A DNA stretch of 16,171 nucleotides from an uncultured Prevotella sp. (lineage in GTDB: Bacteria; Bacteroidota; Bacteroidia; Bacteroidales; Bacteroidaceae): positions 1-16,171 of the forward strand of contig CAMYZK010000019.1 of assembly GCA_947303825.1 (NCBI GenBank). The letters are read 5' to 3'. Positions 151 through 15,509 of this stretch are shown piece after piece; the stretch's first letter is position 1; each line of letters starts with the position of its first letter. The notes beneath the pieces are model-generated. The model saw only the letters and a list, made by a program, of their open reading frames with translations. It made no database searches and was not told the origin of the DNA. The translations under genes and the position numbers were made by a program.

Positions 151-1419
151 ATGATAAGCAGGGAGACCATGCTCTATGCACTGGCACACGTCAACGACGA
201 CGTGTGCCAGCTTGCTTTGAAGGGCACGCGAGCCGACGGTGTTGACATGGCTGCGGCACTGCAGCAGATACAGGGTAGGCAGAAGGCACGGGTCAAGCTG
301 CCCGAATGGGCTGCCATCGATGCCATTCTCTACCCGCCACAGCTGTCCATGGAGCAATGCTCCAGTCAGCACACAGCACAGTACAAGGCCCGACTGGCAG
401 CTTCTCTTCAATCTTCACTCTTTACAAGAGTCTCTCAACTCTCCGCTCGGCTCTGCCGCTTGCAACAAGCAAGAACTCTCAACTCTCAACTCGTAGACAT
501 CACGGGAGGCTTTGGCGTGGACTTTGCCTATATGTCGAAAGCATTCACCCACGCCGTTTATGTGGAGCGTAACGAGGCTCTGTGCCAGTTGGCAGAGACC
601 AACTTCAAGACGCTGGGACTGCACGCCCAGGTGGTGTGTGGCGACGGCGTGGACTATCTGCACGCCATGACTGACCAGGTTGACCTGCTCTTTGCCGACC
701 CAGCACGGCGCGACGACAAGGGTGGCCGCACTTACGGCATTGGCGACTGCACGCCCAACCTGCTGCCGCTCATCGGCGAGATGACAGCCAAGGCCAGACA
801 CGTTGTGCTGAAGCTCTCGCCCATGCTCGACTGGCGCAAAGCCATGGCCGATGTGGGTGCTGCCCATGTCGAGCAGGTACACATCGTGGCCGTGGGCAAT
901 GAATGCAAGGAGCTGCTTCTGGTACTGTCGGCAGAGGGGACGTCCCAGCCGCTCATGGTCTGTGCCAACGATGGGCAGCTGTTCACGGCACCCATCGACT
1001 TTGGAACTTTGGAAAACCGTATGCCACCGGCCTGTGGGACACCGGCACCGGGCACCTATCTATATGAGCCGAATGCTGCATTGATGAAGTCGGGCATGTT
1101 CTCCCAGTTGGCCGCAAGCTACGGGGTGCAGCCGCTAGCCCCTGATAGTCACCTGTTCCTCTCAATAGAGCCAGTGGAGCACTTCCCAGGTCGCTCATTC
1201 GTCGTAGACCTTGTGACGACCATGAACAAGCAGGAGCTGAGACAACACATCCTGCCACTGCGTCGTGCCAACATCAGCGTGCGTAACTTCCCCCTGACGG
1301 CCGACAAGCTACGTGCCCGTCTTAAACTCTCCGACGGTGGCGACAACTACCTCTTTGCCACCACACTGGCCTCAGGGCACCACGTCCTGATAAAGGCAAG
1401 AAGAGCTTTTTTGAGTTAA
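151..1419 (+). CDS. THUMP-like domain / class I SAM-dependent methyltransferase family protein
   Basis: The 422-residue product resembles the Bacteroidetes family typified by Porphyromonas gingivalis PG_1098, a class I SAM-dependent methyltransferase fold with a C-terminal ferredoxin-like/THUMP-like part. It is probably an RNA modification enzyme with unknown substrate. Visible signals are the N-terminal helical region with QGRQKARVKLPEW (about 41-53), the SAM-binding glycine loop VDITGGFGVDF (about 115-125), the acidic YVER (137-140) and FADPARR (181-187). The start is fixed by an in-frame TAG directly before the ATG; Met7 is an alternative. The odd part is residues 84-114, between QYKARL and the SAM loop: they are encoded by a reverse-oriented copy of the intergenic double-hairpin repeat seen also at 1417 and 2437. 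The frame stays open through it. Family assignment is fairly sure; the target RNA is unknown. Confidence 0.88.
   Translation: MISRETMLYALAHVNDDVCQLALKGTRADGVDMAAALQQIQGRQKARVKLPEWAAIDAILYPPQLSMEQCSSQHTAQYKARLAASLQSSLFTRVSQLSARLCRLQQARTLNSQLVDITGGFGVDFAYMSKAFTHAVYVERNEALCQLAETNFKTLGLHAQVVCGDGVDYLHAMTDQVDLLFADPARRDDKGGRTYGIGDCTPNLLPLIGEMTAKARHVVLKLSPMLDWRKAMADVGAAHVEQVHIVAVGNECKELLLVLSAEGTSQPLMVCANDGQLFTAPIDFGTLENRMPPACGTPAPGTYLYEPNAALMKSGMFSQLAASYGVQPLAPDSHLFLSIEPVEHFPGRSFVVDLVTTMNKQELRQHILPLRRANISVRNFPLTADKLRARLKLSDGGDNYLFATTLASGHHVLIKARRAFLS
401..493 (-). repeat. Double-hairpin repeat, copy A, translated in frame inside the methyltransferase gene
   Basis: Read on the minus strand this stretch matches the intergenic copy at 1417: heptamers of the type GAGTTGA (on the plus strand 473-479, 480-486, 487-493), then GTTCTTGC, a stem-loop CTTGC/GCAAG (plus 459-473, loop of 5), abutting a second stem-loop CGGC-AGA-GCCG (plus 448-458). 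More 7-bp-like units, of the type CTTCAAT/CTTCACT, follow on the far side (about 405-425). It codes for residues 84-114, just before the SAM-binding loop. Confidence 0.8.
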
Positions 1420-1506
1420 GAGTTCTTTGCAAGCAAAGCGGCAGAGCCGAGTGCTTCGACGAGCGAAGCGAGAAGACTTCTAAAATCTAAATTCTAAAGT
1501 TAAGAG
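1417..1506 (+). repeat. Double-hairpin repeat with flanking heptamers, copy B (methyltransferase-nadK gap)
   Basis: The repeat begins at the TAA stop codon of the methyltransferase gene (GTTAAGAGTTC) and nearly fills the 104-bp gap to nadK. Hairpin 1 is CTTTGC/GCAAAG (1425-1438). Hairpin 2 is CGGC-AGA-GCCG (1439-1449) and starts at the very next base. A third stem-loop GCTTCG/CGAAGC (1453-1469, loop of 5) follows, then AT-rich 7-bp units of the type AAATTCT at about 1477-1500. No Bacteroidetes promoter is visible here, so nadK is probably read through from upstream and the structure lies in the mRNA between the two genes. Confidence 0.8.
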
Positions 1507-2441: not shown

Positions 2442-2477
2442 GAGTTCTTCGCTGAGCGAAGCGGCATAGCCGAGCGC
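2437..2477 (+). repeat. Double-hairpin repeat, copy C (3' end of nadK)
   Basis: The nadK stop codon is embedded in GAGTTAGGAGTTC, the same lead-in as copy B. Hairpin 1 is CTTCGC-TGA-GCGAAG (2447-2461); hairpin 2 is CGGC-ATA-GCCG (2462-2472), again exactly adjacent. Relative to copy B, stem 1 carries a T-to-C change matched by an A-to-G change on the other side, so pairing is kept. The third hairpin and AT-rich heptamers seen in copy B are missing here. Confidence 0.75.
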
Positions 2478-2566: not shown

Positions 2567-2742
2567 CTTCGCTCACTTAATCACGACCTTGAGCTAAAGC
2601 TCGAGCTCGTTCACGTTCGGAAGAAATCAAGCGAGCTTGTTTCTTCGCTCACTTAATCACGACCTTGAGCTGAAGCTCGAGCTCGTTCACGTTCGGAAGA
2701 AATCAAGCGAGCTTGTTTCTTCGCTCACTTAATCACGACCTT
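2567..2742. repeat. 76-bp tandem repeat, 2 full copies plus a 24-bp partial, covering the end of the secreted-protein gene
   Basis: Copies at 2567-2642 and 2643-2718 differ at a single base (A at 2596, G at 2672); a third partial copy at 2719-2742 contains the true 3' end of the minus-strand gene (codons for KVVIK and the TGA stop). Each full unit therefore holds, on the minus strand, the last codons, the stop codon and a strong hairpin. The hairpin is GAAGAAA/TTTCTTC with an inner CAAG/CTTG stem, at 2620-2646 and 2696-2722. Each unit also has a small inverted repeat GAGCT/AGCTC whose loop holds the one variable base. Confidence 0.95.
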
Positions 2743-5142
2743 GCGGCCATTGATGATGTAGAGACCCTTCTGGGCATTCGTCACCTTCTGTCCCTGGAGG
2801 TTGAAGATGGTGTTGCTGGTGGTTGTTGCAGCCTTGACGGTGCTGATGCCCGTGGTGACATCGTAGACGAAGTCGAAGCCGAAGAATCCGAGCTTAGAGC
2901 CAGCGCAGTAAATCTTGTAGCTCTTGCCAGCGGTCACGTCGAAGGAGTAAGTGCCATAATACTTCGGGTCAACGGTGATGCCGTCGTAGTTGCTCAGAGC
3001 TGTGCCGTCTTCCAAAATGTAGAATGCCTTGTTTGCATTGAGCACAACAGCTACGTCGATGGTTCCACTATACAGAGGATTGATGGTGTAGAATGTTCCA
3101 CCAGCCTTGTTGCCGTTGGTGCCATTACCAGATGTGAATGCTGTATAGCCCTCTATGCTACCGTTAGCAGCTGCTGCATTGAAGTCGGCACCACCGTCTT
3201 CACCGTAGGTGATGGTAGCCACGGTGAGGTCGCCGTCTTTCACTTCCACGGTCTGTCCAGACTTAAAGACGTCACCCTCCTTCAAGCTGTAGATAGGAGC
3301 CTTGACATACTTGGCAAACTTCACGTTCTTGAACGAGAGCCAGCTGATGTTGTTGTCGGCAGCGACGTTGAACTTAATCTTCAGCACGCCGTCATCGCCC
3401 ACGGTGCCCCTTGCGGTGAACTCTCCAATATAGAAGTTGTTGTCCTTGTCGAGTGTAATCTTTAAGGCGCCCTTAGTAACGTCAGCAGCTTCGCCATCGT
3501 TTGCCTGCAGCGAAATGCCGTAAGCATTGGTATCGGCACCAGTATTATTCTTTGTACGTACACGCACGAGGGCGGTAACGTCGTATTCGCCAGCCTTAAG
3601 GTTCTCCATAGTGGCAGTAAGAGTTCTCTCGCCAAGCGAAGTGTCATCGCCAGTCCAGTACTCGAAGAAAGGAACCCTGAATTCCGAGCCGTCGTTGTTG
3701 CCCTCTACCGACCAGGTATTAATGTAGTAAGGAGCATTCTGGAAGTCAGGATTGGTGTCCCATGCGCTGAGCAGGAAGTTGTCGCAGGTAATGGGGGCAT
3801 GCCATCCGGTTCCTGCAAACGGATCTTCCAGTGCAGAAGCCTCGGCTGTGGTGAGAGTGCCCTCCTTGTATTTGGCAGCCCATGTGCCGTAGTAGTTGTC
3901 GTAAGCCTCCTGAGTGTAGACGTTGGTGCTCTCTACGAGTTGCTTCATCTTAGCCAGGATGTCCTTGGCACTAGCGAAGGCTTTACCTTTGTTGATAGCA
4001 TCTTTCAGATTGTTTATAGCTTGCTGTGCAGCGGTAAGGTCGCTGATGCCGTCGGTGGTGTCGTAAATGTTCTGCAGCTCGGTCTTGACGGCCTCGATTT
4101 CGACATCGCCTGAAGCGAGGAGGCTGGCCAGCTCTCCGCGAAGCTCCTCGAGCTGTGCAAAGATGGCAGCGTTCTTGGCAGCGTCGATGGTGCAGTCGCC
4201 ATAATAGGTAAGCTCGAAGTTGTCCCATACGGCCCAGATGTCGGCACGCTCGCTCTTGGCACCGATTTTCAGGATGCCGTCGTCGCCCACGAGGATATAG
4301 ATGGGTTCAACCTGATACTTGCCAGCACCGAACTGGTTGCTGAGCTGTGTCTGACTAGTCAGTTGGTCGGCAGTGAGCATGATGGCGAAGTCAACAGTCT
4401 CGTCGTTGGCATAGATAACGGGAGCGCCCTGTCCGTCATATTCCTTAACGGCGCGGTCGTCGTGATAGGTAACGGCAGCCTGTGCATCGAGCTTGTACAC
4501 ACCCTTGGGAAGCCCTGTCAGCGTCTGGTTAACGTCGAAGGCAGCCATGTATGACTCTGTGTTAAAGTTTTTGTTGTCACCTCCCTTATGGAGTCCGGTG
4601 CCTTCCCACGCGCTGGCGTTGCGGTTGTTGCGTCCGAAGTTGGGGTCGAGAATCATAAAGGTGGCATCGCGTGGCTCGGTGACCTTGGCCACCTTCAGCG
4701 ACTCGGCCAGCTCTTCGTGCGTAAAGACGTTCCACAGCGCATTGTCGCCGGTGATGTTCTTGCCAAGTATGGTTGAGCTGCCGTCATAGCCGTAGAGTTG
4801 TCCATCGTCATGGGCAATTGTAAAAGACCCTCCATCAATGGCGAAGGTGAGGGGCTTAGCATTGACGTTGTCCATATAGTCTCCCTCGAAGTAGTATTCC
4901 CCATCACCATTGGCCACCTGTGTCTCCATCTTGTATTTCCCGTCATCTATTTTGTATAGCATGACGTACTCAGGATGTTTCACGAGAGAAGCACGTGTGC
5001 CCCAGTCGTTGCCGCAGCCCCACCAGAGGCTGGTGTTGACGTTCTGCAGGTAGTACTTCCCGTCTTCAAGCTGTGCCTGCGCACTTACACCCATAGCCAG
5101 CATGCCGGCCAGGAGCATTGATTTGAGTAAAGTTCTTTTCAT
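2725..5142 (-). CDS. Large secreted protein with tandem carbohydrate-binding-like modules and a C-terminal sorting-type tail
   Basis: The product is 805 residues from the ATG at 5142. A longer frame upstream to 5394 runs over the promoter and the end of proA and is rejected. Residues 1-24 form a classic signal peptide (MKRTLLKSMLLAG…SAQAQ). Residues 25-155 are a beta-rich domain that starts with LEDGKYYLQN. Residues about 160-315 look like a galactose-binding-fold module (ILDPNFGRNN…WDNFELTYYG). Residues 319-435 are a predicted helical linker rich in Ala, Leu and Lys. A second module of the same general type follows (about 440-620, ending ISWLSFKNVKFAKY), then a beta-rich region. The last 45 residues (TGISTV…IFNLQGQKV…KGLYIINGRKVVIK) are a tail common on Prevotella/Bacteroides secreted proteins and similar in style to type IX secretion C-terminal domains. 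No catalytic domain is recognised; the role is likely glycan binding or surface association. It has its own promoter at 5191-5224. Confidence 0.88.
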   Translation of the reverse strand: MKRTLLKSMLLAGMLAMGVSAQAQLEDGKYYLQNVNTSLWWGCGNDWGTRASLVKHPEYVMLYKIDDGKYKMETQVANGDGEYYFEGDYMDNVNAKPLTFAIDGGSFTIAHDDGQLYGYDGSSTILGKNITGDNALWNVFTHEELAESLKVAKVTEPRDATFMILDPNFGRNNRNASAWEGTGLHKGGDNKNFNTESYMAAFDVNQTLTGLPKGVYKLDAQAAVTYHDDRAVKEYDGQGAPVIYANDETVDFAIMLTADQLTSQTQLSNQFGAGKYQVEPIYILVGDDGILKIGAKSERADIWAVWDNFELTYYGDCTIDAAKNAAIFAQLEELRGELASLLASGDVEIEAVKTELQNIYDTTDGISDLTAAQQAINNLKDAINKGKAFASAKDILAKMKQLVESTNVYTQEAYDNYYGTWAAKYKEGTLTTAEASALEDPFAGTGWHAPITCDNFLLSAWDTNPDFQNAPYYINTWSVEGNNDGSEFRVPFFEYWTGDDTSLGERTLTATMENLKAGEYDVTALVRVRTKNNTGADTNAYGISLQANDGEAADVTKGALKITLDKDNNFYIGEFTARGTVGDDGVLKIKFNVAADNNISWLSFKNVKFAKYVKAPIYSLKEGDVFKSGQTVEVKDGDLTVATITYGEDGGADFNAAAANGSIEGYTAFTSGNGTNGNKAGGTFYTINPLYSGTIDVAVVLNANKAFYILEDGTALSNYDGITVDPKYYGTYSFDVTAGKSYKIYCAGSKLGFFGFDFVYDVTTGISTVKAATTTSNTIFNLQGQKVTNAQKGLYIINGRKVVIK

Positions 5143-5190
5143 TTGATTACAATTAGTTAGTAAAAATAGGTTTATAGGAAAAATATTTTG

Positions 5191-5224
5191 CAAAAATACA
5201 CATTTCGTTTCATATATGCAACAA
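5191..5224 (-). promoter_or_regulatory. Bacteroidetes-type promoter of the secreted-protein gene
   Basis: On the minus strand a -7 box TATTTTTG (plus 5191-5198) fits TAnnTTTG exactly. Twenty bases upstream is TTGTTG (plus 5219-5224) as the -33 element. The predicted start lies about 45 bases before the ATG at 5142. Confidence 0.65.
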
Positions 5225-5296
5225 TTGTCAAATCTTTTTTTCGATAAAAGTGATATCAAGTACCTGAAAGGCACGCATGTTCCGCCACCTATATAG

Positions 5297-5328
5297 CAGC
5301 CGAACAGTCGTGCCTGCGGCATCGGCTG
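5297..5328 (-). terminator. Nested hairpin after proA (possible terminator)
   Basis: CAGCCGA (5297-5303) pairs with TCGGCTG (5322-5328), and an inner stem TGCC-TGC-GGCA (5311-5321) abuts the outer right arm. It lies about 30 bases beyond the proA stop and upstream of the next promoter, where a terminator is expected. No T-run is seen, so this is tentative. Confidence 0.3.
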
Positions 5329-5357
5329 TACAGTGCTTGACAAAGATAGAATTCTGA

Positions 5358-6632
5358 TTATGGTCTTGTCTGTCCTTCGCCCTCGATGAGCCACTTGTAG
5401 GTGGTTATCTCTTCAAGGGCCATAGGTCCTCGCGGCCCCAGCTTCTGGGTGCTGATGCCTATCTCTGCTCCTAGGCCGAACTGTGCGCCGTCGGTAAACG
5501 ATGTCGGAGCATTCCAATAGACACATGCAGCGTCAACATGCTGCTGGAACTTGCGGGCAGCAGCCTCGTTGCTGGTTATGATGGCCTCGCTATGGCCGGA
5601 GCCGTAGCGGTCTATATGAGCCAAGGCCTCGTCGAGCGATTCCACCGTTTTCACTGCCATCTTGTAGTCCATAAACTCGGTGCCGAAGCTCTCGGCTGTG
5701 GCGTGCTTGATAAATGAAGAGTGAAGGGCGAAGAGTGAAGAGTTTGCTATTGCTGAGTAGGCTTCCTCGTCGGCATAGATGGTGACAGCGGGCTTCCCCC
5801 CAGTGGGTGACAAGAGGGGAGCTATGAGTTCGGCAAGGTCGCCCAGCCTGCCTTGATGGATAAGCAGGCAGTCGAGGGCGTTGCACACGCTGACGCGGCG
5901 CGTCTTGGCATTTGTCACGATGGCCTTGCCCATCTCCAAGTCGCCGTCTAGGTCGAAGTAGGTGTTCACAACACCTGCCCCCGTCTCTATCACTGGCACA
6001 CGGGCTGTGTCGCGCACATAGTCTATTAGCTTGCGCCCTCCACGGGGTATGCACAGGTCAATATATCCCACAGCGTTGAGCATCTCGCCCGTGGCCTCAT
6101 GGGTGGCTGGAAGCAGTGCAACGACATCTGGCGATACACCATATCGTTGCAGCACGCTGTGTATCAGTGCCACACCGGCACGGTTGCTGGCATCGGCATC
6201 CCTGCCGCCCTTCAGCACGCAGGCATTGCCGCTCTTGAAACAGAGTGAGAAGACATCGAAGGTCACGTTGGGACGGGCCTCGTAGATCATTCCTATCACA
6301 CCGAATGGCACGCTGACACGCTTCAGCCTCAGACCGTTGGGCAGTGTTTTCTGCTTGGTGACATGTCCCAGCGGTGAGGGCAGCGTAGCAACATTACGCA
6401 TGTCGGAAGCTATGGCACTAAGCCGCTCAGGGGTGAGCATCAGTCGGTCGTACAGTGGGTTTGTCCTCTCCATACGGGCAAGGTCCTGGCTATTAGCTTC
6501 CAGCAGCTGGTCTTTGTTGTCCTCAATGGCCTGGGCCACGGCATTCAATATCTCGTTTCTCTCTTCATTGCTTAACAGCGGCAATTGGCGGCTGGCAGTC
6601 TTCACACGTTCAAAAGTCTCTTTCAGTTGCAT
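5358..6632 (-). CDS. proA: Gamma-glutamyl phosphate reductase
   Basis: NADPH-dependent reduction of L-glutamyl 5-phosphate to glutamate semialdehyde, the second step of proline synthesis, in the cytoplasm. The start at 6632 gives [10 protein letters not shown] and 424 residues; a longer frame to 6686 would lie within the leader. Family motifs seen: [16 protein letters not shown] (109-124), KGGRDA (141-146), PRGG (196-199), ETGAG (216-220), the active-site cysteine region [12 protein letters not shown] (Cys250), [13 protein letters not shown] and the end [17 protein letters not shown]. The usual partner proB is not in this window. Residues 297-306 ([10 protein letters not shown]) are encoded by four 7-bp tandem repeats in a region where family members usually have a short variable loop. 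The promoter lies at 6695-6728, divergent from trxA. Confidence 0.96.
5716..5743. repeat. Four 7-bp tandem repeats translated inside proA
   Basis: On the plus strand the units are GAAGAGT (5716-5722), GAAGGGC (5723-5729), GAAGAGT (5730-5736) and GAAGAGT (5737-5743). They are of the same kind as the heptamers flanking the double-hairpin repeats. They encode proA residues 297-306 on the minus strand without breaking the frame. Confidence 0.8.
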
Positions 6633-10759: not shown

Positions 10760-10830
10760 AGATGGTTCATTTTTTTGTTTTGCAAATGTAACCGACCTCC
10801 CCTCCCTTAGGGAGGGGTCGGGGGTGGGCT
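10693..10830. repeat. Inverted-repeat element 2 spanning the pump stop codon and the channel-gene signal peptide
   Basis: Arms at 10693-10723 (31 nt) and 10799-10830 (32 nt) are near-perfect inverted copies, differing by one inserted base and one C/T change. Each arm contains its own GGGAGGGG/CCCCTCCC stem around a three-base loop. The right arm overlaps the TAG stop of the pump gene; the left arm lies inside the next gene and encodes residues 12-22 of its signal peptide. The start codon of that gene (10759) is in the loop between the arms. Confidence 0.88.
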
Positions 10831-13800
10831 ATTTCTCTATTTCATATTCTACTGGACGTTTAGCATACTGCTGCAGCTCTGTGGTCACATCGGGGTTCTC
10901 TTCTTCGCCCTCGAACTTCATGGGTTTGAACTTCTCCTGTAGCGACTGGAAGATGACGAACAGTGCTGGCACCACGAATATCTGACAGAGCGTACCAATG
11001 AGCATGCCACCCACTGCAGCAGCACCCAGTGTCTGGTTGCCATTCTTGCCTACTCCGCTTGCAAACATCATAGGCAGCAGTCCGATAATCATTGCCAGCG
11101 ATGTCATGAGGATAGGTCTCAGACGTGCTGCTGCACCCAGCACTGCCGACCACGATATGGCCATACCCGTCTGTCGGCGTTCCAGTGCGAACTGCACAAT
11201 GAGGATGGCGTTCTTTGCCAGCAGACCAATAAGCATAATCATTGAAATCTGCATGTAGATATCGTTGGAGTGGTCGAACAGCCATGTAAAGAGGAAACAG
11301 CCTGCCAGTCCAAACGGAATGGACAGCATCACTGCCAGGGGCAGTATATAGCTCTCGTACTGAGCCGAAAGGATAAGGTAGATGAAGATGAAGCACAGCA
11401 GGAAGATGATTGCTGTAGAGTTGCTGGCCTTTGCCTCCTCACGTGTCAGACCCTGATAGTCGTATGTATATCCCGTAGGCAGTGCCGTCGCAGCCACCTC
11501 CTGAGCGGCTTTTAGTGCATCGCCCGTAGAGTATCCGTCGGCCACCGTTGCCGTGACGTTGATAGAGGTAAAGAGGTTGAAGCGGTTAATGTTCGACGGG
11601 CCGTACACTCGCTCCAGCTGGCAGAACTCCTGTACTGGCGACATTCCCGCAGGCGTGCGTACATATACATTATTAAGGCTCTCAGGAGTCATGCGTGTCT
11701 CTGGCGCGCCTTGTATCATCACCCTGTACAGCTTTCCGTAGGCATTGAAGTTAGAGGCATACAGTCCACCGTAGTATCCCTGCAACGTGGTAAGCACAGT
11801 GTTGGGCGATATTCCTGCCTGCTTACACTTTGCCACGTCAACATGTATCATGTACTGCGGATAGCTGGGGTTGTAGCTCGTCATGGCCATCTGTATCTCT
11901 GGCCTCTTGTTCAGCTCTGCCAGAAAGTCCTTCACTACGCCGAAGAACTTGTTCAGGTCGCCGCCGGTGCGGTCCTGCATCACAATGCTCAGTCCGCTGT
12001 TGGCCGAGAAGCCTGGAATCATTGGTGGCTGGAAGGCAAGTATCTGAGCGTCTTTGATGTGAGCTGTCTTGATGTATATCTGTGCCAGCACGCCCGATGC
12101 ATCGCTGGGGTTGAGGAAGAACCTGTATGGTCCGTCGCCCTGCCACAGTCCGCTCATCTTCCACCACAGTCCGGAGAAGAATCCCTTCATTCGCTCGGAG
12201 AAGGGTTTCAGCTTGAGAATAAAGGTTGCCTGGTCGGAGCCGGCACCGGCAATGAAGTTGTATCCCTGTATCTGCTCACGGCTCTGTATGGCAGGATCGG
12301 CAGCCAGTATAGAGTCTACCTCACTTATTATCTGCTTGGTGCGGGCCACCGATGTTGCCGGCGGCATGGAGATGGTGCAGAAGAGCGTTCCCGTGTCCTC
12401 GCTGGGCACCAGTCCGGTCTTCGTTATCTGCATGCTGCCTATCAGTGCTGCTATGCCCAGCACCACTATGACACCTATTAGCATCGGTTTGCGCACTGTC
12501 TTCTCTATGCGTTTCTTGTACTTGCCCAGTATCTTGTCGTAGGCCGTGTTGAACGACTCATGGAAGCGGTCCACACGGCTCATCTTGCGCTCAGTGCCAT
12601 CCTCGTTCTTCGGCTTGAGGAAGATGGCACACAGAGCCGGCGAGAGTGTCAAGGCGTTAAGGGCCGAAATGAAGATAGACACAGCCATCGTCACACCGAA
12701 CTCTCGGTAGAACGTACCTGTGGTACCTCCCAGGAACGACACGGGGATGAACACCGAAGCCATGACCAGTGTGATGGAGATGATGGCTCCCGAAATTTCG
12801 TTCATGGCATCGATCGATGCCGTCAGTGCACTCTTGTAACCCTGGTCCAGCTTGGCGTGCACCGCCTCTACCACCACAATGGCATCGTCCACCACAATGG
12901 CAATGGCCAGCAGCAATGCCGACAGTGTGAGGAGGTTAATGGAGAAGCCGAACACACTTAGGAAGAAGAACGCACCTATGAGCGACACTGGCACGGCGAT
13001 GAGCGGGATAAGCGTGGAGCGCATGTCCTGCAGGAAGATATACACTACGATGAACACCAGTATGAGCGTCATCAGCAGGGTGAATATCACCTCCTCGATA
13101 GAGGCATAGAGGAACTCGGTGACATCGTAGTTTATCTTGTATTTCATCCCCGGCGGGAACAGTTTGGCCTGCTCTTCCAGTTCCTTCTTCACCTGCTTGG
13201 CTATCTCGTTGGCGTTGGAGCCGGCTATCTGCTGCACCATACCCATCACCGATGGGATGTTGTTGTTCTTCATCGACACCGTGTACTGCTGTCCGCCCAG
13301 CTCTATCTTGGCCACATCTTTCAGCTTCAGTGTATTGCCGTTGCCATCGTTGCTGATGATGATGTTGCCAAACTCCTCTGCCGACTTCAGTCGTCCGGTG
13401 TAGCGCATGGCATACTCGAAGGCTACATCGCTCCGCTCACCGAAGGTACCCGGAGCTGCCTCAATGTTCTGCTCGGCCAGCACACCGCTGATGTCGCTAG
13501 GCATCAGGTTGTACTGCTTCATCACATCGGGCTTCAGCCAGATACGCATGGAGTAGGTCTTCAGACCAGGGCTCTGCACATCGCCCACACCCTGTATACG
13601 CTTTATGGCAGGAATGATGTTGATGTTGGAGTAGTTGGTAAGAAACTCGTCGTCATACCGCCCGTCACTGGTCAGGGTGAACATCATCACCTGGCTGGTC
13701 TGGCGCTTCATCACCGTCACACCTATGCGTGTCACCTCGGCAGGCAACAGAGCCAAAGCCTGCTGAACGCGGTTCTGCACGTTCACCGCACACATGTCGG

Positions 13801-14098
13801 CGTTCATGCCCTGACGGAAGAGGATGCTGATGTTTGCTGAACCCGACGATGCTGTAGAACTCATGTAGTCCATGCCCTCCACACCGTTGATGCTCTCTTC
13901 AAGCGGAGCAAGCACTGAGTTCTTCACCGTCTCTGCATCGGCTCCAGGATAGCTGGTGTAGACCACCACCGTGGGAGGAGCGATATCTGGATACTGCTCT
14001 ATGGGCAGCGAGAGCAGACCTATGACACCCAGAATGACGATGACTACCGAGATCACCGTCGAGAGTACCGGGCGCTTTATAAAGTTTGTAAATGTCAT
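10829..14098 (-). CDS. RND efflux pump, hydrophobe/amphiphile (HAE1, AcrB-type) inner membrane transporter
   Basis: Proton-driven exporter of the inner membrane, 1089 residues. The N-terminus FIKRPVLSTVISVVIVILGV is the first membrane helix, followed by LPIEQYPDIAPPTVVVYTSYPGA. The proton-relay aspartate pair of helix 4 is present as Asp404-Asp405 (IAIVVDDAIVVVEAV), and the helix 10 lysine as GLLAKNAILIVQF. The periplasmic porter and docking loops and twelve helices are all in place, and RLRPILMTSLAMIIGLLP near the end is typical. It is the middle gene of the adaptor-pump-channel operon. The C-terminal tail is charged (EGEEENPDVTTELQQY) and its TAG stop lies within inverted-repeat element 2. 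Substrates likely include drugs, bile salts or detergents, by family only. Confidence 0.96.
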   Translation of the reverse strand: MTFTNFIKRPVLSTVISVVIVILGVIGLLSLPIEQYPDIAPPTVVVYTSYPGADAETVKNSVLAPLEESINGVEGMDYMSSTASSGSANISILFRQGMNADMCAVNVQNRVQQALALLPAEVTRIGVTVMKRQTSQVMMFTLTSDGRYDDEFLTNYSNINIIPAIKRIQGVGDVQSPGLKTYSMRIWLKPDVMKQYNLMPSDISGVLAEQNIEAAPGTFGERSDVAFEYAMRYTGRLKSAEEFGNIIISNDGNGNTLKLKDVAKIELGGQQYTVSMKNNNIPSVMGMVQQIAGSNANEIAKQVKKELEEQAKLFPPGMKYKINYDVTEFLYASIEEVIFTLLMTLILVFIVVYIFLQDMRSTLIPLIAVPVSLIGAFFFLSVFGFSINLLTLSALLLAIAIVVDDAIVVVEAVHAKLDQGYKSALTASIDAMNEISGAIISITLVMASVFIPVSFLGGTTGTFYREFGVTMAVSIFISALNALTLSPALCAIFLKPKNEDGTERKMSRVDRFHESFNTAYDKILGKYKKRIEKTVRKPMLIGVIVVLGIAALIGSMQITKTGLVPSEDTGTLFCTISMPPATSVARTKQIISEVDSILAADPAIQSREQIQGYNFIAGAGSDQATFILKLKPFSERMKGFFSGLWWKMSGLWQGDGPYRFFLNPSDASGVLAQIYIKTAHIKDAQILAFQPPMIPGFSANSGLSIVMQDRTGGDLNKFFGVVKDFLAELNKRPEIQMAMTSYNPSYPQYMIHVDVAKCKQAGISPNTVLTTLQGYYGGLYASNFNAYGKLYRVMIQGAPETRMTPESLNNVYVRTPAGMSPVQEFCQLERVYGPSNINRFNLFTSINVTATVADGYSTGDALKAAQEVAATALPTGYTYDYQGLTREEAKASNSTAIIFLLCFIFIYLILSAQYESYILPLAVMLSIPFGLAGCFLFTWLFDHSNDIYMQISMIMLIGLLAKNAILIVQFALERRQTGMAISWSAVLGAAARLRPILMTSLAMIIGLLPMMFASGVGKNGNQTLGAAAVGGMLIGTLCQIFVVPALFVIFQSLQEKFKPMKFEGEEENPDVTTELQQYAKRPVEYEIEK

Positions 14099-14106
14099 CT
14101 TCTTTA

Positions 14107-14309
14107 TAAGTTTAGAGTTTATAATTTAGAATTTAGAAGTATTCTTGCGTCCCTGCGGTAGCAAGCGACCAGAGGTCGAGCGCTCGCTTCGCTGCGATTA
14201 AGACATAAGAATATAGAATTATTATTGTATGCACACATTATTTCTTATTTCTTAATTCTTACTCGGCAAAGCCGATACATCTTAATTCTTAACTCTTAAT
14301 TCTTAATTC
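14107..14309 (+). repeat. Composite repeat region between adaptor and pump genes, with double-hairpin copy E
   Basis: The 211-bp gap is almost wholly repeats. From left there are 7-bp units such as AATTTAG/AGTTTAG (about 14109-14137), then copy E: hairpin 1 CTTGC/GCAAG (14144-14165, 12-base loop) abutting hairpin 2 CGACC-AGA-GGTCG (14166-14178). An AT-rich spacer follows, then a lone CGGC-AAA-GCCG hairpin (14264-14274), flanked by 7-bp units of the type CTTAATT that run up to the adaptor stop codon at 14310. It lies in the middle of the efflux operon mRNA, in antisense orientation to copies B and C relative to the genes. Confidence 0.75.
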
Positions 14310-15509
14310 TTATTTTTTCATTGCACCCACGATGTCTCCGGCACTCATCTCCTTGGCCTGCTCGCCAATCTTCTGCTGGTAGCGCTGCGGGGTGATGGGC
14401 ACTATCTTCATCTGGTCGGTAAGCTTGGTAATGCCGTTGGTAACATACTTATCGCCCACCTTCAAGCCGCTTGCCACTATGTAGTTGTTGCCATCGTTCT
14501 GCGGGTCAACGGTAATCTCGGTGTAGACCACCTTGTTGCTGTCGCCCAGCACATAGACAAACTTCTTGTTCTGCACCTCGCTCACCACCGACTGTGGTAT
14601 CTTTATCACTCCCTCGCTGCTGCGTGGCACTATCACGGTGCCGCTGCCGCCGCTCTTGAGCAGACTCTCAGGGTTGGGGAAGTGTGCCTTCAGCTGCACG
14701 GCGCCCGTTGCCTGGTCTATCACGCCGCTCATTGCTGCCACATGTCCCTCCAGCGGATAGATGGTGCCGTCGGCCAGCTGCAGCTTTACTGGCGGGAACT
14801 GTGCTATGGCAGCATTGACACCGCCTTCCGCCTTGGCCATCGTCAGCATGTCTTTCTCGGTAACGCTGAAGAATACCTCCATCTGACTCACGTCAGACAC
14901 ACGGGTAAGCACGTTGGAAGCACTCACCAGGGCACCCTTCTTAAAGGGCAGGTTGCCCACCACGCCACGGGCGGGGCTCTTCACATAGCAGTAGCTCAGC
15001 ATCTCGCGGGCCGAGGCCAGTGCTGCCTGTGCCTGGGCCAGCTGTGCCTGTGCACTCTTGTAGGTGTTCTCGGCAGTCTGCAGCTCATATTCGCCAATGA
15101 CGTGGCTGTCAAAGAGCTGCTTCGAGTTCTCGTATGTCAGTTTGGCGGTGTTTACTGCACTTTGCGCTGTGTTTACAGAAGCCTGAGCCTGACGCACCTG
15201 AGCCTGATAGGTGGCGTTGTCCAGCACGAACATCAGCTGTCCGGTCTGAACGGTCTGTCCCTCGGTAACGTTAATCTGGGTAAGGAAGCCCTGTACCTTC
15301 GGACGTATCTCCACATCCTGAATACCGTTTATCACGGCAGGGTAAGAGGTCTGCATCTCTGCACCTTGAGCCTTCACCGTGTCAACGGGATACTCATTGT
15401 CGCCAAATTCCGGACGCCCGCCGCCACTGCCGCCGCCCATGAACTTGGGCACTATCAGTATGGCCAGGACTACCACAGCAATAATGATTAAAACTAATTT
15501 CTTTACCAT
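14310..15509 (-). CDS. RND efflux periplasmic adaptor subunit (membrane fusion protein, AcrA-type)
   Basis: Bridges the inner membrane pump to the outer membrane channel. The 399-residue product begins with an uncleaved-looking membrane anchor (about 5-24, LVLIIIAVVVLAILIVPKFM) and no lipobox, so it is probably anchored by a helix rather than by lipid. The lipoyl-like half motif is at about 58-97 (VINGIQDVEIRPKVQGFL, then EGQTVQTGQLMFVLD). An alpha-helical hairpin rich in Ala and Gln runs about 98-168, and the second lipoyl half starts at LSYCYVKSPARGVVGN (171-186). The beta-barrel and membrane-proximal domains follow to the end (GDKYVTNGITKL). First gene of the efflux operon, with its own promoter and a leader of about 105 bases. 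Confidence 0.95.
   Translation of the reverse strand: MVKKLVLIIIAVVVLAILIVPKFMGGGSGGGRPEFGDNEYPVDTVKAQGAEMQTSYPAVINGIQDVEIRPKVQGFLTQINVTEGQTVQTGQLMFVLDNATYQAQVRQAQASVNTAQSAVNTAKLTYENSKQLFDSHVIGEYELQTAENTYKSAQAQLAQAQAALASAREMLSYCYVKSPARGVVGNLPFKKGALVSASNVLTRVSDVSQMEVFFSVTEKDMLTMAKAEGGVNAAIAQFPPVKLQLADGTIYPLEGHVAAMSGVIDQATGAVQLKAHFPNPESLLKSGGSGTVIVPRSSEGVIKIPQSVVSEVQNKKFVYVLGDSNKVVYTEITVDPQNDGNNYIVASGLKVGDKYVTNGITKLTDQMKIVPITPQRYQQKIGEQAKEMSAGDIVGAMKK

Follow-up and report, generated by a model that had tools for sequence, protein, structure and literature searches.

A 30-base stretch of DNA that folds into two back-to-back hairpins, with no bases between them, is dispersed through the genome of an uncultured Prevotella sp. 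The element is mobile, and the pairing of its first stem is kept through sequence change. It is probably a non-coding, non-autonomous mobile element of 28–30 nt (37–41 nt in its long-loop classes) that has spread through the Prevotella-type lineage, and its presence can be accounted for without assigning it a role in the cell. The element represents a very small mobile DNA for which empty and filled sites can be compared directly. With junctions this clean and sequence changes that preserve the fold, it lends itself to studying the minimal requirements of a mobile element, and it bears on the mechanism by which very small hairpin elements move in bacteria and organelles. Throughout, the window is the whole 16,171-nucleotide stretch of DNA that was analysed, which is contig C19 of a 2.63 Mb assembly comprising 385 contigs and 71% complete.

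Anatomy of the element

The layout of the element is CTT-x-loop-x'-AAG, followed by CGGC-NNN-GCCG and then by AGCG. Its anatomy was studied in 80 stretches amounting to 1.07 Mb, the window included, and the coordinates given here are those of the whole CTT...GAG[CT]G unit. The sample contains 72 stem-bearing copies, these being the members of a set of 96 cores that are abutted by a stem starting with C, and they fall into classes by the length of the stem-1 region: 15 nt (n = 30), 22 nt (n = 23), 14 nt (n = 10), 26 nt (n = 4) and other lengths (n = 5). The 28 distinct copies that were aligned start with CTT and end with AGCG, AGTG or AGCA; a GT[AG]G foot is found at neither end of them, and CTT at one end bears no inverted-repeat relation to GAGCG at the other.

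The original prediction placed four copies in the window, each folding as two adjacent hairpins; all four are present and DNA folds agree. Copy 1 (444..473, minus strand, 30 nt) has the stems CTTGC/GCAAG, with a loop of 5, and CGGC/GCCG, and lies in frame inside ORF 151-1419. Copy 2 (1425..1453, plus strand, 29 nt; stem 1 CTTTGC/GCAAAG, loop 2) starts 5 nt past the stop codon of the same ORF, and directly behind it lies a truncated second unit (1454..1468, plus strand) consisting of stem 1 only, CTTCGACGAGCGAAG, which may be compared with a two-unit array at L091 598ff. Copy 3 (2447..2476, plus strand, 30 nt; stem 1 CTTCGC/GCGAAG, loop 3, with an ATA loop in stem 2) likewise starts 5 nt past a stop codon, that of ORF 1524-2441, which by the look of its sequence is NAD kinase-like. 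Copy 4 (14144..14182, plus strand, 39 nt) belongs to the long-loop class, with CTTGC/GCAAG enclosing a 12-nt loop and a stem 2 of the CGACC/GGTCG subfamily; it is located between ORFs 10829-14098 and 14310-15509, both on the minus strand and putatively of efflux type judging from their translations. Folding energies of the four copies correspond to z values of -1.3 to -1.6. As a single copy is thus unremarkable by energy, the evidence for the element comes from the family.

Several other repeats were seen alongside. Tandem arrays of two or three units, spaced by ~20–37 nt and with stem 1 partly shortened or missing, occur at L091 598ff, L072 10295ff, L062 14950ff and L073 10172ff. In the same genome (for example at L109 7631, L131 5833 and L072 5949), the element is abutted or hosted by members of another dispersed hairpin family, CACCCCTGCCTGTGGTCTGTCGCCCCTTCGGGGC with its variants, and composite arrays of several hairpin types also occur. 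In the window itself, roughly 80 bp around TTCTTCGCTCACTTAATCACGACCTTGAGC are duplicated in tandem at positions 2560-2730, where ORF 2725-5394 (minus strand) has its 3' end.

Conservation of stem pairing

Both stems had been predicted to change by paired substitutions, and for stem 1 this is borne out, also in the further copies. At position 4 of stem 1, 37 of 42 copies of the 14–15 nt class are paired (T-A in 15, C-G in 12 and G-C in 10), against a permutation expectation of 14.1 and with none of 2000 permutations as high; the remaining five are unpaired by Watson-Crick rules, mismatched copies such as CTTTGCAGAGCCAAG being included in the count. When all length classes are taken together, 29 of 33 distinct sequences pair at this position, compared with 11.4 expected. 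For the permutations the stem was taken as the best over TTCTT sites, and the sample comprised 66 of the 69 cores (from a total of 94) with TTCTT no more than 40 nt upstream; among the 25 cores lacking it, several are later units of tandem arrays and some are chance cores. One and the same loop can be found with different stem-1 pairs, as in CTTCGACGAGCGAAG and CTTGGACGAGCCAAG, or CTTTGCAGAGCAAAG and CTTCGCAGAGCGAAG.

The covariation score on the named structure is 0.171, against 0.043 in shuffles, and is reached by none of 500 shuffles; of two weaker measures, the number of pairs changed on both sides is matched in 31 of 500 shuffles and that of additional pair types in 27. The 99.6% pairing of the 28-copy alignment is partly a matter of construction, only copies with at least four pairs having been admitted. 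For stem 2, the predicted paired change holds in one subfamily only: the stem is invariant in the 28 distinct copies and, because it never varies there, is uninformative on pairing, but the CGACC/GGTCG form, of which 1.07 Mb contain four exact copies including window copy 4, does represent a paired change.

Copy number and distribution

A genome scan was expected to find more than chance numbers of copies, and it did so. The pattern AAGCGGCANAGCCGAG is found at 218 places in the genome of origin when up to two mismatches are allowed, against four for a reversed-pattern control, and at 194 places with up to one mismatch, against none. In the window, up to three mismatches yield five matches where 0.57 are expected, with none of 200 shuffles giving as many; three of the five are exact and correspond to copies 1–3, the two with three mismatches are non-members, and copy 4 is missed by the pattern.

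In a wider set, the pattern matches 56 of 119 genomes, the genome of origin included. Within the genus, 45 of 72 genomes match, with 0 to 40 copies besides the 194 of the genome of origin, whilst in other families 11 of 47 genomes match with 1–3 copies each, and the control pattern matches 7 of these 47. The scan of related genomes with a covariance model, as had been proposed, gave matches at E ≤ 0.01 in 121 of 200 genus genomes, again including the genome of origin, and none in the other 79; counts from this model saturate, with at most ~36 places scored per genome. Contigs classed as viral (the label is that of the collection) also carry the element, 14 of them in the 30-nt form, including six longer than 100 kb, and three in the 29-nt form. 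Nothing was found in plasmid and phage reference collections, weak negatives given the short queries of 41 and 56 bases. Around NAD kinase-like genes, 80 loci kept of 405 relatives contain the core pattern twice, in neither case preceded by stem 1; 27 of these 80 loci were inspected by eye around the two window sites, and the neighbourhoods are too distant to provide clean empty sites. A pair of copies in opposite orientation, ~127 bp apart and in similar surroundings, is common to two genomes (L327/L328 in G164 and L034 in G023).

Filled and empty insertion sites

Genomes G041 and G028 have in common a 180-bp stretch, 92% identical, in which the element is found at the same place but with a different stem 1. 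A search with this stretch gave matches in 54 of 119 genomes, and from all matches a selection of one locus per genome in 30 genomes was taken, of which 29 cover the site. The host of the site is an IS1380-type insertion sequence, which carries it in its 5' end; in L313, an IS1380 transposase ORF adjoins the empty site. Of the 29 aligned loci, 16 are filled and 13 empty. In the filled loci the insert, CTT...GAGCG of 28–30 nt, directly follows GTT in most cases, and comparison with the empty loci reveals that no target bases have been duplicated and none lost. The empty form reads ...CCTGAGCAACAAAAAGTT|GCTCAGG..., a palindrome, with the filled form having CTT...GAGCG at the bar; the bases beside the junction differ in filled loci L297 and L305 and in empty loci L309 and L317. 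Since an intact palindrome is broken up by the insertion, the element was more likely gained than lost. The IS1380-type elements of the genus (L308, L313, L320 and others) carry a palindrome, CCTGAGCAAC-AAAAA-GTTGCTCAGG, upstream of the transposase, and it is interrupted by the element in 16 of the 29 loci.

Filled and empty loci are mixed on a tree of the flanking sequences, with eight changes in the best tree, at least two of them forced. The filled/empty label is hardly clustered: shuffles average 9.8 changes, and 88 of 500 are as low as eight. A single clade for the filled copies is marginally rejected (p-AU 0.048, two long rows left out). As this rejection is only marginal, a single insertion, with later spread of the IS and exchange between its copies by recombination, may also have produced the pattern; such recombination could mix filled and empty states on the tree.

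A second host repeat, within the genome of origin, offers five filled and nine empty sites, and two filled and two empty ones match exactly as CAGGGGTT[element]TCACCCCTG and CAGGGGTTTCACCCCTG. More generally, TT forms the left flank of 65 of 72 copies (GTT in 46 of them), whereas TT makes up 5.5% of the genome, and TT was not required in the selection of these copies.

Copies inside genes

Longest-ORF proxies, which were used here in place of a gene caller, cover 89% of the 1.07 Mb yet contain only 18 of 82 copies, the other 64 lying outside. Whether a copy lies in an ORF proxy differs with its length class: 14 of 30 copies of class 15 (the 30-nt element) do so, compared with none of 12 of class 14 (29 nt; p = 0.003). 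Four of 20 copies of class 22 (37 nt) and one of four of class 26 (41 nt) are also found in ORF proxies, here in putative ORFs of 465–1608 nt, though neither length is a multiple of three, so that a reading-frame rule is no more than suggestive. In the 30-nt class, 15 of 23 distinct copies are free of stop codons in all six frames, as are 56% of shuffles; six-frame openness is therefore not special and was rejected as an adaptation to genes.

The host gene of copy 1 (151..1419, plus strand) encodes a PG_1098-type protein with a THUMP-like domain, both of its Pfam matches (PF22013 and PF18096) lying behind the element. Residues about 85–112 of the protein are encoded by 7-bp repeats together with the element; in several relatives the alignment covers residues 3–84 and 113–418 only, and others have a different linker. 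The translated stretch recurs in a SprA-type gene. The linker of PG_1098-type proteins varies in length and content among relatives, with L384 and L392 having other stretches of repeat-derived appearance in the same place. A priA gene carrying the element in frame exceeds the form usual in relatives by ~12 residues, in a loop that itself varies in length. With respect to Pfam matches, the element is situated within the match in priA (L072) and in a DUF6298 gene (L080), and between two matches in a glycoside hydrolase gene (L070). It follows the best match in the SprA-type gene (L086) and precedes all matches in L126, L131 and ORF 151-1419. Copies are tolerated inside some genes, and insertions in priA and other genes are a source of short protein inserts.

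Seven-base repeats

Intergenic regions commonly contain tandem 7-bp repeats, AAGAGTT and AAGAGTG among them, which often start right behind stop codons, the unit differing by species; examples include window positions 14230-14315 and sites behind NAD kinase-like genes in L141, L142 and L159. Among perfect runs of periods 4–12, period 7 is the commonest (n = 99), followed by period 8 (n = 35). Such repeats were predicted to flank most copies, which proved an overstatement: perfect 7-bp runs adjoin 13 of 40 short-class copies and one of 32 others. The association itself is real, since 6% of random intergenic positions adjoin such runs, about five times fewer than short-class copies do. In other species other heptamers are seen, and there too the element can follow a heptamer ending in GTT; 7-bp arrays are also present without the element in relatives.

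How the element might move

Clean insertion next to TT looks like single-strand transposition. The moving form would be a folded single strand, recognised by the shape of stem 1 together with the fixed stem 2 and GAGCG. The element, CTT...GAGCG, is inserted directly 3' of TT, mostly GTT, without target duplication or loss where filled and empty sites could be compared, and would be joined to the 3' end of the TT target as happens in single-strand transposition of the HUH/IS200-IS605 type. The enzyme would be supplied in trans and, in several carriers, would be something other than a resident Pfam Y1_Tnp protein. We tentatively propose, with less than even confidence, that the element may be a bacterial counterpart of the double-hairpin elements of mitochondria. 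In this reading the mobile unit would be the folded single strand of 30 bases, whose shape and not its stem-1 sequence is recognised, and non-Y1 machinery would insert it after TT. That machinery might be an unrecognised recombinase or a host enzyme of repair or replication. In G164, the one complete genome examined, no strand preference was apparent: 12 of 21 usable copies are on the leading and nine on the lagging strand, a small number set against a coarse skew (22 copies were found at up to one mismatch, one being dropped for its missing stem 1, and the origin and terminus were judged from twenty 16-kb samples).

An unlikely alternative is a REP/REPIN family whose mobilising RAYT (a TnpAREP, perhaps of the Bacteroidetes subclass 2.6) has been lost or missed in some genomes. 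The size, hairpins and copy number of the element would fit, as would insertion without target duplication, and subclass 2.6 provides, in the excerpt available, a precedent for atypical structures without GT[AG]G (PMC6006769). Of 20 hand-chosen copy-rich genomes, 14 have some Y1 match, 13 of them over the family cut-off. The other six have none, and four of these are 92–99% complete: G141 and G225 (both 99%) have 25 and 19 model matches, and G203 and G196 (93% and 92%) have 30 and 35. A linked Y1/RAYT transposase gene, which the original prediction suggested looking for, is unsupported in the genome of origin, the 119 genomes, 20 Y1 neighbourhoods and the 20 copy-rich genomes. The genome of origin (assembly 71% complete) has no Pfam Y1_Tnp match. 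Over 72 genus genomes the correlation of copy number with Y1 count is weak if it exists (rho 0.21, p 0.07), a Y1 match being found in 16 of 22 genomes with at least five copies and in 27 of 50 with fewer. Among the 20 Y1 neighbourhoods, which come from 13 genomes and in several cases end at contig ends, a copy by the strict pattern is present in one; by rough estimate this is about what copy density would give by chance. The one case, G025 (L230 3039-3518), is a short IS200-like Y1 gene that matches the NCBI IS200/IS605 model and has a copy ~100 nt upstream. The YIKGQEEHH motif of this gene resembles the motif given for subclass 1.2 in the available part of PMC6006769. No autonomous partner with the ends of the element was found in 1.07 Mb; an autonomous form whose gene would be bracketed by stem 1 on one side and stem 2 on the other was considered and rejected, the short stem-1-like hairpins without stem 2 in this sample looking degenerate or unrelated.

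Spread without any dedicated enzyme, either by hairpin-mediated template switching or by recombination via 7-bp arrays and IS copies during replication, we regard as rather improbable. The roughly fivefold enrichment of short-class copies beside 7-bp arrays and the occurrence of tandem units would be expected from it, and paired stem changes are an outcome of quasi-palindrome correction, in which template switching could generate them without selection. The same ends and the same TT target are, however, found at unrelated, array-free sites, namely the IS1380 site, priA and the second host repeat.

Also improbable, in our estimation, is a function at the RNA level, with terminators or hairpins for processing or stability being retained near gene ends by selection. 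The kept stem pairing and the two window copies 5 nt past stop codons speak for such a role, as does a same-strand stop codon no more than 50 nt upstream of the core in 14 of 60 listed distances. Outside ORF proxies, however, copies show no orientation preference (30 of 64 have a same-strand gene upstream and 26 of 64 an opposite-strand gene downstream), and the copy listing has no T run directly behind the hairpins, which together rule against an intrinsic terminator; moreover, copies sit within an IS and, on both strands, within genes, and Rfam covariance models run against the window gave no match at the copies, with four sub-threshold microRNA-type hits elsewhere. Finally, a MITE of a DDE insertion sequence is rejected, there being neither terminal inverted repeats nor, across 16 filled and 13 empty loci, any target site duplication.

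Comparison with known systems

Miniature elements derived from IS200/IS605 have no target duplication, a short fixed left target and hairpins. The Prevotella element is like them in lacking a target duplication and in having hairpins and a fixed left target, TT, but is much shorter and has no autonomous partner in the sample described above. PINSR, a 188-bp repeat of the Prevotella intermedia/nigrescens group, has been described only in a few related species (PMC4755523); it too is a high-copy non-coding Prevotella repeat without terminal inverted repeats, but is set apart by its size. Rickettsia palindromic elements are similarly inserted in frame in protein genes, but measure about 150 bp and have their own ORF, as stated in the excerpt at hand (PMC10969869), compared with 30 bp here.

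The original prediction likened the copies to REP/BIME elements of Proteobacteria. The likeness stands as regards short palindromic units dispersed in more than 100 copies, REP-like size and an extragenic preference. It fails on two defining features of REPs, the GT[AG]G foot and the flanked Y1 gene, several carriers lacking any Y1 match, and the Prevotella element also differs from REP, BIME and REPIN sequences moved by RAYTs in having two different hairpins per unit and some copies in genes. The prediction further held that no named family of this kind is known in Bacteroidetes. Here, TnpAREP subclass 2.6, which in the portion of the paper available is mostly from Bacteroidetes and is flanked by atypical structures without GT[AG]G (PMC6006769), has to be set against the claim; for double-hairpin elements, no named Prevotella or Bacteroidetes family, and no bacterial one of this kind, came to light in the open-access literature, a body of work that mostly does not include subscription journals. 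Small palindromic, high-copy repeats tagged with GTAG or CGTC have also been described, the CGTC class being said, in the text available, to occur in Bacteroidetes (PMC3733652); the ends of the Prevotella element carry neither tag.

By architecture, the nearest analogue appears to be the double-hairpin elements of fungal mitochondria. The original paper on these is reportedly that of Paquin et al. in 2000. They are tiny, GC-rich and potentially mobile, consist of two hairpins and are mostly intergenic, with some in genes, in the account available to us (PMC10085805). Both comprise two adjacent stem-loops of variable sequence, although in the Prevotella element only stem 1 varies much, and the latter differs in residing in bacterial chromosomes and an IS and in having a fixed stem 2, a GAGCG end and a TT target. 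On this likeness, the Prevotella element would work as a mobile double-hairpin element does.
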